Shown here one piece after another: positions 5,419 to 10,977 of a DNA stretch of 64,000 nt. Numbering within the stretch: position 1 is the stretch's first letter; every line of letters starts with the position of its first letter. Where the stretch lies: positions 1,015,507-1,079,506 of the forward strand of contig CP166960.1 of NCBI GenBank assembly GCA_041447175.1, written 5' to 3'. Source of the DNA: Candidatus Bathyarchaeia archaeon (GTDB lineage Archaea > Thermoproteota > Bathyarchaeia > Bathyarchaeales > Bathycorpusculaceae). The notes under the pieces were generated by a model that was not told the origin of the DNA, did no database searches, and worked only from the letters and a program-made list of their open reading frames with translations. The position numbers and the translations under genes were made by a program.

Positions 5419-5430
5419 CTGTTTATAAAT
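5419..5430 (-). promoter_or_regulatory. Candidate TATA box for tbp copy 1
   Basis: The minus strand reads ATGTATTTATAAACA here, about 45 bases upstream of the TBP start and overlapping the last codons of the signal peptidase gene. The TBP gene may therefore have its own promoter rather than being read through. Confidence 0.35.
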
Positions 5431-6163
5431 ACATCTGCACAAGTTTGTCTGTTTTTTTCTGTTCAACAATAACAGCAGTTCTTCGCTTCAAAGCAGGAAC
5501 AACGAATTCAACAAGTAGGATGATTAAAAGTAGAAAACCAATTATGGGTAAAGCAACATACCGGTTGTCCACCCCCACGACATCATGCATAAACATAGCA
5601 AGGCGCCCCAACCACGGCACCCGCATAACAAGTTTGCCGACAACTAAGTCTTGGCTAACTGCCCCCTGCGGAATACTTGCGTTACTACTGTACCAAGGGT
5701 CATACTCGTAGGGTTTAGCGGTTTCTGGCCAGTAATGTGACGGGTTACCATCCCCTTTGGTGAAGAAATAAAGTTTGCCGTTTATAGTCGTGCTCGCAAC
5801 GATTCGGTGAACGATAAGTTCATCTGGGTTGTCAGGTCGATGAAAAACAATGATGTCACTGTCAGGATACTGCGTCTTGAGCTCATTGGGAGCTACACCC
5901 TGAATTACAATTATATCCCCAACCTGCAAAGTTCTATCAAAAGGACGAAGCCAACCGTCACGTGAGCCGTCAGCATAAGGGATGCTCATGCTTCCACTTA
6001 CAACAGCCAATGCAGGGGGAATCTCGGTGTTAAAAACGATTTGTGAACCAAACCATAGGCCAAAAACAATACCGACCGTGACTAAAACAACCACAACTGT
6101 TTGAAAATAGTTATTTTGCAAGAGGTTTTTAGTTGAATGACGCAGTTTTTGGCTTTCACTCAT
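5423..6163 (-). CDS. Signal peptidase I, archaeal Sec11 type (copy 1)
   Basis: A 246-residue membrane protease of the archaeal/ER signal peptidase family that cleaves Sec signal peptides outside the membrane. It has an N-terminal transmembrane helix (about 21-43), the catalytic VSGSM (S58), IVHRI (H119 in place of bacterial Lys) and TKGDGN (D138). A second helix lies near 202-222, before a basic tail. The segment between the SGSM serine and the following VGD strand is longer than the usual SGSMxPxxxxGD, adding about a dozen residues including DGWLRPFDRT. The next gene is a close paralogue. An active enzyme is likely because all three catalytic residues are present. Confidence 0.9.
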   Translation of the reverse strand: MSESQKLRHSTKNLLQNNYFQTVVVVLVTVGIVFGLWFGSQIVFNTEIPPALAVVSGSMSIPYADGSRDGWLRPFDRTLQVGDIIVIQGVAPNELKTQYPDSDIIVFHRPDNPDELIVHRIVASTTINGKLYFFTKGDGNPSHYWPETAKPYEYDPWYSSNASIPQGAVSQDLVVGKLVMRVPWLGRLAMFMHDVVGVDNRYVALPIIGFLLLIILLVEFVVPALKRRTAVIVEQKKTDKLVQMYL

Positions 6164-6230: not shown

Positions 6231-6881
6231 TCACGGCTTCATCGTCTGCAACTCACTTTGACTCTGCTTGTTGCGTTTAAGCAGAGGAAACACGAATTCA
6301 CTCACTATCAGCAGTACGATGAGGATAACAATTAAGGGGATAACTATCGTGTTGTTTGCGCCCGTACTCTGCATCATAATGGCTACCCAACCTATCCAAG
6401 GTACGCGCAGAATCACTTTTCCAACGACCATGTCTTGAGGAACAGGACTCCAAGGGTCATACTCGGAAGGCGAAATGGGGTCAGGCCACTTGTTCCAGCC
6501 GTTTCCGTCACCTTTGGTGTAAAAAGCCAATTCGCCATCAACTTGAGTTGGCGCCGCGATACGGTGAACAATTAATTCATTGGGTTTTTGTGGATTATGA
6601 TACACTATTACATCGCTGTTTGGGTAGTCCGTAAGGAGGTCTTGAGGATTTATTGGTTGGATAAGAAGTATGTCGCCTACATGGAGGGTTCGGTCAAAGG
6701 GGTGTGTCCAGCCATCGCAGAGACCGCCATAGGGGATGCACATGCTTCCTGATGGAACAACGGCAACATATCCTGCCTGCTCAACTAAGTAGAAGCCGCC
6801 TACTGCCGTAGCAACCAAAGCTATGAGTATAACTGTTTGAACGTTGCCGTCTTTTAGGGCTTTTTTGATGCGGGCAGTCAC
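6231..6881 (-). CDS. Signal peptidase I, archaeal Sec11 type (copy 2)
   Basis: A 216-residue paralogue of the neighbouring signal peptidase with the same plan: N-terminal helix (about 15-34), SGSM with S46, IVHRI with H106, TKGDGN with D125, and a C-terminal helix before a Lys/Arg-rich end. It shares the extended segment after the catalytic serine (DGWTHPFDRTLHVGD). It starts at GTG, 67 bases upstream of the other copy, so they probably share a transcript. The pair suggests a duplication with possible division of labour, fitting the many secreted proteins in this window. Confidence 0.9.
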   Translation of the reverse strand: MTARIKKALKDGNVQTVILIALVATAVGGFYLVEQAGYVAVVPSGSMCIPYGGLCDGWTHPFDRTLHVGDILLIQPINPQDLLTDYPNSDVIVYHNPQKPNELIVHRIAAPTQVDGELAFYTKGDGNGWNKWPDPISPSEYDPWSPVPQDMVVGKVILRVPWIGWVAIMMQSTGANNTIVIPLIVILIVLLIVSEFVFPLLKRNKQSQSELQTMKP

Positions 6882-7976: not shown

Positions 7977-8303
7977 CTAAGTCACGTAAGCATCTTTTTT
8001 CTGGGTGGTTCTTCTTGCTTCACCACATTTGACGCAGCTTTGCGCACATAGTTCAAGGTACTTTGCTTCATCTCCAGAACCGACGGCTTCGGCGGCTTTC
8101 TGGCATAAACCGCTGGGTTCGTCGCACCCTTCCTCTTTGCATAAGCCCGAGATGTATTGGCAAATTTCTTGGACATCTTTGGGCTCTAACACTGCGCGGT
8201 TAGTTCTAACCAGAAGACACAATTCCCGTGCCATTACACAGGTTTTCACATACTTGACCCGGTCTAAAACTTCTTCTCGGAGTTTTTTTCGGCTAATCTC
8301 CAC
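7977..8303 (-). CDS. Cysteine-rich helical protein of unknown function
   Basis: A 108-residue protein with nine cysteines (22, 29, 48, 55, 60, 67, 86, 90, 93) and no signal peptide. Three pairs are spaced by seven (22/29, 48/55, 60/67) in predicted helices, so they would line one helix face; the last three form CxxxCxxC. This suggests a helical bundle with a cysteine-lined core or a metal or Fe-S site, reminiscent of Cys-rich four-helix copper-storage or DUF326-like proteins, but I do not recognise the family. It starts at GTG behind AAGGAGA and is followed 36 bases later by the aKMT-like gene, so co-transcription is likely. Confidence 0.65.
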   Translation of the reverse strand: MEISRKKLREEVLDRVKYVKTCVMARELCLLVRTNRAVLEPKDVQEICQYISGLCKEEGCDEPSGLCQKAAEAVGSGDEAKYLELCAQSCVKCGEARRTTQKKDAYVT

Positions 8304-9157: not shown

Positions 9158-9604
9158 TTACGTATAAGGCATGTAATTCCGTCGTTTGCCTATAGTGTAC
9201 CCCACTAATCCCCCAATAGTGGTAGGTATAACAACTAAGAGGATGATTGATAGAACTGGCCCAAGAGCACTGAAGGGGTAAGTCATGCCTGTAACTAAAA
9301 GAATGAAAACCACCGAAAACATAGTTAGGGAGAAGCCAAGTAAAGCACCAGCGCCAATGAAGGCAATTTTGTTAATAATATGCAGAGCTTGCGTGTGCCG
9401 ATATTTTGTCTGAATATGCCAGACTGCATAAACAAGAGGAACAGTTACAATGGTTACGAGAACACCACCAAAAAAGATGGATAAGTCGATATATGATAAG
9501 ATGAATAAGGCAACCTGTACGACTATAAGAACGGTATAGACTATAAAAAGCAGAGGCAAAAATTGCCTCCACGACTTGGACCCTTTTTCTGCCTCGCAGT
9601 TCAT
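9158..9604 (-). CDS. Four-helix membrane protein next to the halocin-like gene
   Basis: A 148-residue integral membrane protein with about four hydrophobic helices (roughly 14-36, 40-62, 77-102, 110-136), a polar N-terminus and a basic C-terminal GKRRN. I recognise no family. It follows the rhodanese/halocin-like gene on the same strand after 44 bases, with GGAGGT before its ATG, so the two probably share a transcript. By analogy with small membrane proteins of bacteriocin operons it might give immunity or aid export; that is speculation. Confidence 0.7.
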   Translation of the reverse strand: MNCEAEKGSKSWRQFLPLLFIVYTVLIVVQVALFILSYIDLSIFFGGVLVTIVTVPLVYAVWHIQTKYRHTQALHIINKIAFIGAGALLGFSLTMFSVVFILLVTGMTYPFSALGPVLSIILLVVIPTTIGGLVGYTIGKRRNYMPYT

Positions 9605-9648: not shown

Positions 9649-10977
9649 CTATGGACAGAGACCAGCTGCGGCACAGGCTATGGCGGCGCTAAACTCTAGT
9701 ACAAGGTAGTAGTAAACAAGTGTAGCACAGTAGGCACATATTGGTGGAAACAGAAAACATATGCCGATACAGCCCATTGTGAGAAGAGGAAGCGCAACTT
9801 GACATAGTGTGCATTCGGGTTCGGGGTCTATCAATACTGCTAAATTGTTAAGGATTTCTTTATCGTATTGTGGCAGTTGTTCTTGCACTATTCTAGAAAA
9901 GCGGCTAAGTTCCGTAGCCATTAGCTGATAGTTTTGACCAAGCTGCTCGAGTTTTGCTTCGTTGTTCTTCTGTCCCTCTTTAATGTAAGCTTGGCCTATC
10001 TTTGTAGCTACTTCATCAAGTGTGTTATACAACTGTGATAACGTGACAGTAGAGTTAATTTCTGCGAGGTCCAGAGAGAGGATTTTAGATGCTTCAACTG
10101 GTACGAAGTTTACGATAGTAACGGAGCTGTTGTAAGTCTTTGCGTCCAGCGGTGTGAGATTAGTAGCTATTGTAAAATTGTATTCCGCATGTTGGAGCAA
10201 ATAATCAAGGCTGTAATACTGTAGCGACGCCACGTTACTAGTGATTGTAATCATGGAGAAATTTGCCGCTTCGCTCACACCATTAGTATTGTTGCTATAA
10301 TGCCACAATACACTTTCAGTGATTGTAAACTCAAGCAATGTTCCGTTGAGTTCATACGTTACCATAGTTACTGTGTAATCTGCTCCCTCATACAGGGGGG
10401 TAATCTGAATGTTAGTTATTTCACTGGCGTCTTGGCACCCTTGACTTGTTTTGCATAAGACACAGTCCGTTAGCATTAACAAAGGTTCCATTTCAATATT
10501 AACTCCGTTTTCGCCAGTTGTGTCCACGGCTACATTGTGAGATGTAATGTAAGCTGGGTATTCAGCTTGTATCCACGCTGTTATTCCGCCAATCATGTTG
10601 TAGACGCCGTCGAAGCCCTGATCTGTAAGGATTTTAGATGCTATCGCGCTTCTTCCACCAGACCCACAATAAACAATTATTTTGGCGTCCATATCAAGCT
10701 CATTTGTTCGTATTTCAAGTTCATCAAGAGGGATTGAAATGGCCCCGTACAAATGGTTAAGGTTGTATTCATTTTCATTCCTAACGTCTAAAATGATGAT
10801 TGAGCCTCTTGTAGATTGATGCTTAATCATATCGTAGGCTTGTTGTACAGTGATGTCTTGGGAGTCGACCAGTTTAGGCGTTGCGAGAGCAGGTTGTACT
10901 AATACCAGCATCGAAAGCATTAGAGCTGATAACAGTACGGCGGTAACCAATTTTCTAAACTCCATAATTTTTAACAT
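9649..10977 (-). CDS. Secreted rhodanese with halocin C8-like cysteine-rich C-terminus
   Basis: A 442-residue exported protein. Residues 1-32 form a Sec-type signal peptide (cleavage expected after QPALA). Residues about 41-140 are a rhodanese domain with a complete active loop CGSGGR (C104), as in sulfur-transfer or persulfide-handling enzymes. Then come a CVLCKTSQGC motif (172-181), a threonine/asparagine-rich beta-type region and a helical stretch to about 380. The last 55 residues are hydrophobic with eight cysteines (389, 392, 403, 407, 414, 417, 435, 441): CxxC, CxxxC, CxxC, then a terminal C-x5-C ending in AAGLCP. That layout and ending resemble halocin C8-type bacteriocin domains. Whether it is a bacteriocin or a membrane-anchored redox protein is open. 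Confidence 0.72.
   Translation of the reverse strand: MLKIMEFRKLVTAVLLSALMLSMLVLVQPALATPKLVDSQDITVQQAYDMIKHQSTRGSIIILDVRNENEYNLNHLYGAISIPLDELEIRTNELDMDAKIIVYCGSGGRSAIASKILTDQGFDGVYNMIGGITAWIQAEYPAYITSHNVAVDTTGENGVNIEMEPLLMLTDCVLCKTSQGCQDASEITNIQITPLYEGADYTVTMVTYELNGTLLEFTITESVLWHYSNNTNGVSEAANFSMITITSNVASLQYYSLDYLLQHAEYNFTIATNLTPLDAKTYNSSVTIVNFVPVEASKILSLDLAEINSTVTLSQLYNTLDEVATKIGQAYIKEGQKNNEAKLEQLGQNYQLMATELSRFSRIVQEQLPQYDKEILNNLAVLIDPEPECTLCQVALPLLTMGCIGICFLFPPICAYCATLVYYYLVLEFSAAIACAAAGLCP

Follow-up and report, generated by a model that had tools for sequence, protein, structure and literature searches.

A secreted rhodanese protein of Bathyarchaeia with a precursor domain found before halocin C8 domains: a candidate archaeocin cassette

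The window, a stretch of 64,000 nucleotides from a Candidatus Bathyarchaeia archaeon, contains on its minus strand an open reading frame (10977..9649) encoding a protein in which a signal peptide, a rhodanese domain, a middle domain and a hydrophobic tail with eight cysteines follow one another. A short gene for a membrane protein lies just downstream. The features are as follows.

9649..10977, minus strand: gene for the rhodanese/precursor-domain/Cys-rich-tail protein, 442 aa, or 438 aa if started at the second ATG (10965)
10882..10965, minus strand: signal peptide of about 28 residues, ending in ...VQPALA (sequence inspection; AF2 helix 3-22)
10567..10845, minus strand: rhodanese domain with intact CGSGGR loop (PF00581, E 5.2e-19; residues 45-137 of the 442-aa form)
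9826..10542, minus strand: precursor (middle) domain, a beta-rich part and a long helical hairpin (about residues 146-384 of the 442-aa form), common to halocin C8-domain proteins of other archaea
9652..9822, minus strand: C-terminal hydrophobic tail with eight cysteines, predicted mature peptide region (AF2 pLDDT 30-40)
9158..9604, minus strand: 148-aa protein with four transmembrane (TM) segments, candidate cognate immunity protein, 44 bp past the stop codon; homologues at the same place beside L002, L004, L006 and L130

The N-terminus of the protein resembles a signal peptide (MEFRKLVTAVLLSALMLSMLVLVQPALA). Its membership of the rhodanese family is given both by the domain score, 69 bits in a Pfam scan against a cut-off of 22.2, and by the intact active-site loop with the catalytic cysteine, VYCGSGGRS. 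The cysteines of the tail, ECTLCQVALPLLTMGCIGICFLFPPICAYCATLVYYYLVLEFSAAIACAAAGLCP, number exactly eight and are arranged as CxxC, CxxxC, CxxC and Cx5C. An initial annotation of this DNA, made from the sequence alone, had described an exported rhodanese with a complete active site joined to a C-terminus with this very cysteine pattern, and the observation is confirmed, except that the AAGLC motif, although present, does not end the protein, which terminates one residue further (AAGLCP). The middle region (about 240 residues) gave no Pfam or NCBIfam match over cut-off. Structure prediction, which the annotation had proposed for the tail, was carried out with AF2 (10 and 9 sequences) and yielded a confident model of the middle domain, but no confident fold for the window-type tail. 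A PDB fold search with the model of middle domain and tail returned nothing at E below 0.001, and a PDB sequence search gave no match. A saposin- or amoebapore-like reading of the CxxC...Cx5C pattern was considered, the tail model being of low confidence.

Homologues with the whole architecture, which the annotation had suggested looking for, do occur in other Bathyarchaeia, including Ca. Bathyarchaeum tardum, and the architecture is kept at 37-46% identity. In a 7-sequence alignment six of the tail cysteines are invariant, and the tail of the window protein is 55% identical to that of G008; taken together, these three observations indicate that the tail pattern is more than a product of chance. 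A profile of the middle domain and tail matches 17 of 257 Bathyarchaeia genomes, with up to 4 matches per genome. The middle domain is far better conserved than the tail. The rhodanese is absent from some Bathyarchaeia members (L009/L135, L140), one member (L129) has no tail, and members from genus g12 continue beyond the Cys-rich segment, which is therefore not terminal there, with a lectin-like domain (L044, L045, L047, L134 and L137, the first with a sub-threshold F5/8 type C match). In G374 (L221, 5465-7910) two precursor genes stand in tandem, their Cys-rich tails differing from each other; the gene for a 259-aa membrane protein overlaps the first of them. The secreted rhodanese module at the N-terminus also exists outside this family, in Bathyarchaeia proteins (L008, L010, L019, L020, L049, L052, L055) where it is fused to NosD/pectate-lyase-like beta-helix repeats rather than to the precursor domain.

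The annotation had likened the tail to halocin C8, a peptide that is cut from the precursor ProC8 (PMC11509114). Like the window protein, ProC8 (TIGR04449; PF22862, Hac8_like_N) is an exported precursor with a hydrophobic Cys-rich end that starts with CxxC and finishes with Cx5C, but the halocin has about 10 cysteines as against 8. The comparison by which the annotation had said its reading could be refuted, TIGR04449 (a 69-position domain with a curated cut-off of 24 bits) against the window protein, gave no match at E up to 10. The same was true of the middle and tail parts of L002, L004, L006 and near homologues, while the positive control, Haloferax P0002, scored 46.7 bits; among the genomes of 61 relatives none had a match over cut-off. 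Against a profile of 19 halocin-type domains the window tail scored 1.6 bits, a value equalled by 112 of 1000 shuffles, and hhalign of tail against halocin gave a probability of 11.6%. Relatives with the same tail subtype fared better, shuffles scoring as well in 0/1000 cases for L130 and in 5/1000 for each of L004 and L006, but most of this signal was gone when the cysteine positions were fixed (7/1000 for L130, 70/1000 for L006), and the likeness of these tails to the halocin profile is only suggestive. Membership of the window protein in TIGR04449 was rejected on the absence of a match and the non-significant profile score; its tail is a separate subtype outside that family.

The middle region, which the annotation had placed where halocin precursors carry an immunity part, fared no better against known halocin precursors: a Pfam scan found no Hac8_like_N in the window protein, and hhalign of the middle domain against the haloarchaeal precursors gave a probability of 0.1%. 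Homology to the N-domains of haloarchaeal or methanogen halocins was accordingly rejected, and the immunity part is more likely to be the separate gene 44 bp downstream. The window protein further differs from ProC8 in its rhodanese and in that no twin-Arg signal was seen.

The link to halocin C8 came instead from other archaea. A set of 393 Halobacteriota genomes was searched with TIGR04449 only, which gave 26 places above cut-off, and the open reading frames at these places were then scored with the Bathyarchaeia middle-domain profile, the tail being excluded. Among 10,458 open reading frames, three of the proteins so fetched contained the middle domain (L161, 6.4e-13; L149, 1.7e-11; L165, 2.2e-11), while all remaining ones outside the family had E above 1. 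L161 and L149 have the middle domain immediately followed by a halocin C8 domain that exceeds the curated cut-off (35.6 and 60 bits with TIGR04449, respectively); L165 is a frameshifted copy in which the middle domain is followed by only the start of a halocin C8 domain. None of the three has a rhodanese. Since the proteins were fetched with the tail model alone and scored with the middle domain alone, the association between the two is independent of the way it was found. The middle domain is thus a halocin-type precursor domain, homologous to the pro-region of halocin C8-domain proteins, and the halocin-like idea of the annotation, which fails for the window protein as such, is supported in kind.

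With the halocin-linked members added to the middle-domain profile (profile A5), matches were obtained in 16 of 393 Halobacteriota genomes, several of them weak or confined to the tail, and in Thermoproteota outside Bathyarchaeia. The Bathyarchaeia and non-Bathyarchaeia middle-domain profiles align with a probability of 99.9% (E 1.4e-35), the non-Bathyarchaeia rows having themselves been gathered by profile. All non-Bathyarchaeia members read out lack the rhodanese except L200 and L201, close homologues of the Bathyarchaeia form from genomes placed only to the same phylum. Judged by these profiles, the proteins constitute a previously unnamed family of precursors present in several archaeal lineages. 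Its distribution is sporadic.

The tails of the family are hypervariable and are exchanged between precursors. This emerged from a pairwise comparison of 41 tails against shuffled controls, in which the top null score was 49 bits in 84,050 comparisons. L018, a rhodanese member from the genus of the window, and L209, a rhodanese-free protein from a different taxonomic family outside Bathyarchaeia, have 59% identity in the tail over 81 aa (127 bits) but 24% in the precursor domain over 84; for L133 and L206 the values are 51% for the tails and 27% for the precursor domains. Against the halocin profile, the tail of L209 reaches 20.8 bits, which 0/1000 sequences attain in each of two kinds of shuffle, and L149, whose halocin domain is bona fide, has matches to L209 (60 bits) and L018 (54 bits). 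Since the L209 tail is halocin-profile-positive and the L018 tail matches it, a rhodanese protein of the window's own genus is tied to halocin C8 through its tail as well as through its precursor domain. The window tail belongs to another subtype: it matches L002 at 76 bits, and L006, L004 and L130 are linked to L002 or to each other.

The gene downstream is a recurrent partner. A TM partner was defined as a gene of 50-300 aa with at least 2 TM segments, called by a simple hydropathy rule, that starts at -45 to +120 bp downstream. The window gene has such a partner; over the family as a whole the count is 23 of 37 members, compared with 56 of 616 control open reading frames of at least 250 aa in other loci (9%; Fisher p=6e-14); in the other 14 of 37 no gene fits this definition. 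Precursor and TM gene thus show an operon-like pairing. The proteins encoded beside L002, L004, L006 and L130, whose precursors have the tail subtype of the window, are homologous to the 4-TM protein of the window, with pairwise E down to 8e-40, and unrelated tail types go with unrelated TM partners: halocin-type tails (L149, L018, L209 and several haloarchaeal genes) are followed by short proteins with 1-2 TM segments, those behind L149, L018 and L209 having two. In G006, a congener, precursor and TM gene are both present as decayed remnants. Behind one precursor (L130, 2451-3300, G161) there are two consecutive 4-TM genes; the second, which is broken, may be an orphan immunity gene. In L159, 258 bp downstream of a methanogen halocin C8-type gene, a thioredoxin/DsbD-like membrane protein is encoded that could be a thiol-handling partner.

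A similar arrangement is known from the virus SSV9, in which B310, a secreted archaeal toxin, is followed by C108, a 3-TM gene (PMC8628083). Like the window protein, B310 has a signal peptide (about 300 aa in all) and a small TM gene behind it on the same transcript, and it shows allelic diversity; it lacks, however, a Cys-rich tail, and it was rejected as a relative for want of sequence homology to the precursor domain. The sulfolobicins SulA and SulB, secreted antimicrobial proteins of crenarchaea that are encoded together (PMC10117752), were likened to the cassette by description only.

From the sequence comparisons, I consider it probable (roughly 0.62) that the window gene encodes the precursor in an archaeal bacteriocin (archaeocin) cassette of two genes, the other being a TM immunity gene behind it, and that the rhodanese was added in Bathyarchaeia; the interpretation of the initial annotation is in this sense partly supported. 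The signal peptide would export the precursor, whose middle domain would act as a pro-region carrying the hydrophobic, disulfide-rich C-terminal peptide and keeping it inactive. Some protease would then free the peptide, which may insert into the membranes of competing related archaea, while the 4-TM protein would protect the producer. The N-terminal rhodanese, apparently a Bathyarchaeia-specific addition, would probably serve the Cys-rich peptide in cis, in its sulfur or thiol chemistry; that it deals with persulfides or disulfides is a guess. Most lineages lack the rhodanese, which is therefore not needed for the core function of the family. In favour of an archaeocin cassette I count the halocin-linked middle domain, the exchange of tails, the pairing with TM genes and the patchy distribution (17/257, and the joint decay in G006). 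Against it stand the window tail, which is not significantly halocin-like and has no confident fold, the non-terminal segment of g12, the presence of the 4-TM domain in wHTH regulators (see below) and the 14/37 members without a TM gene.

The annotation had itself offered another reading, a secreted redox or persulfide-transfer protein whose rhodanese would load or reduce sulfur and hand it to the Cys-rich tail, the latter serving also as a membrane anchor. The tail is indeed hydrophobic and rich in cysteines, there are many secreted rhodaneses besides these in Bathyarchaeia, and among the 19 members whose rhodanese loop was found by pattern the catalytic cysteine is kept in 18. The remaining one, L200, has a serine there, however, and the precursor domain with its tails does without a rhodanese in Halobacteriota, in other Thermoproteota and in some Bathyarchaeia. 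A transfer site would moreover be expected to be conserved, whereas the tails are hypervariable, and the TM partner has no conserved cysteine. This reading is weakened to the point of being unlikely.

A second alternative is suggested by the 4-TM domain, which also forms the membrane part of wHTH-4TM regulators found in Bathyarchaeia genomes without the precursor, so that immunity is not its sole possible role and sensing is a live alternative. The tail could then be released as a pheromone, for which the paired 4-TM protein would be the membrane receptor or sensor. The cassette protein has lost the HTH, however, other tail types are paired with unrelated TM proteins, and the tails, which are long (50-110 aa) and rich in cysteines, are akin to the halocin C8 domain, first defined by an antimicrobial; peptide signalling therefore seems improbable to me. 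In seven such regulators (L231, L232, L233, L234, L236, L238, L240) the motif KPKWWRRFW...GKRR is common to the membrane half and the cassette 4-TM protein.

Finally, a structural or adhesive cell-surface protein with the Cys-rich hydrophobic end as membrane or lipid anchor, which would suit the many N-glycosylation-like NxS/T sites of the middle domain and the lectin-like domain of g12, is improbable as well, since an anchor would not be expected to be swapped between distant precursors, to be paired with a TM gene or to occupy the position of halocin C8 domains, and L129 has no tail at all.

A tentative extension, to which I give somewhat less than even odds, is that the archaeocin cassette belongs to an as yet unnamed system of secreted toxins, polymorphic Cys-rich peptides, that would be widespread in archaea. 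One conserved pro-domain would there carry interchangeable peptides at its C-terminal side, with halocin C8 as one of several types, and every peptide would be matched by a small membrane immunity gene of its own; Bathyarchaeia would have added the rhodanese as a cis-acting sulfur or disulfide maturation enzyme. Antagonism in archaea has been little studied outside haloarchaea and Sulfolobus, and neither a rhodanese-bacteriocin fusion nor archaeocins in Bathyarchaeia were found in the literature searched, which lay mostly outside subscription journals. If the archaeocin reading is right, the middle domain would provide a sequence handle with which to find precursors of bacteriocin type in genomes of Bathyarchaeia, of Archaeoglobus-like archaea and of other Thermoproteota, halocin C8 would fall within a larger modular family, and rhodaneses would acquire a testable new role inside a toxin precursor.

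Two further loci of the window lie near the cassette on the minus strand. At 7977-8303 a small Cys-rich protein is encoded that has no Pfam match and is, by eye, possibly of the four-helix-bundle copper-binding type. An adjacent signal-peptidase-I-like pair is found 3-4 kb from the cassette, at 5423-6163 and 6231-6881; the protein encoded by the former has a sub-threshold PF10502 match, and that encoded by the latter is similar by eye.
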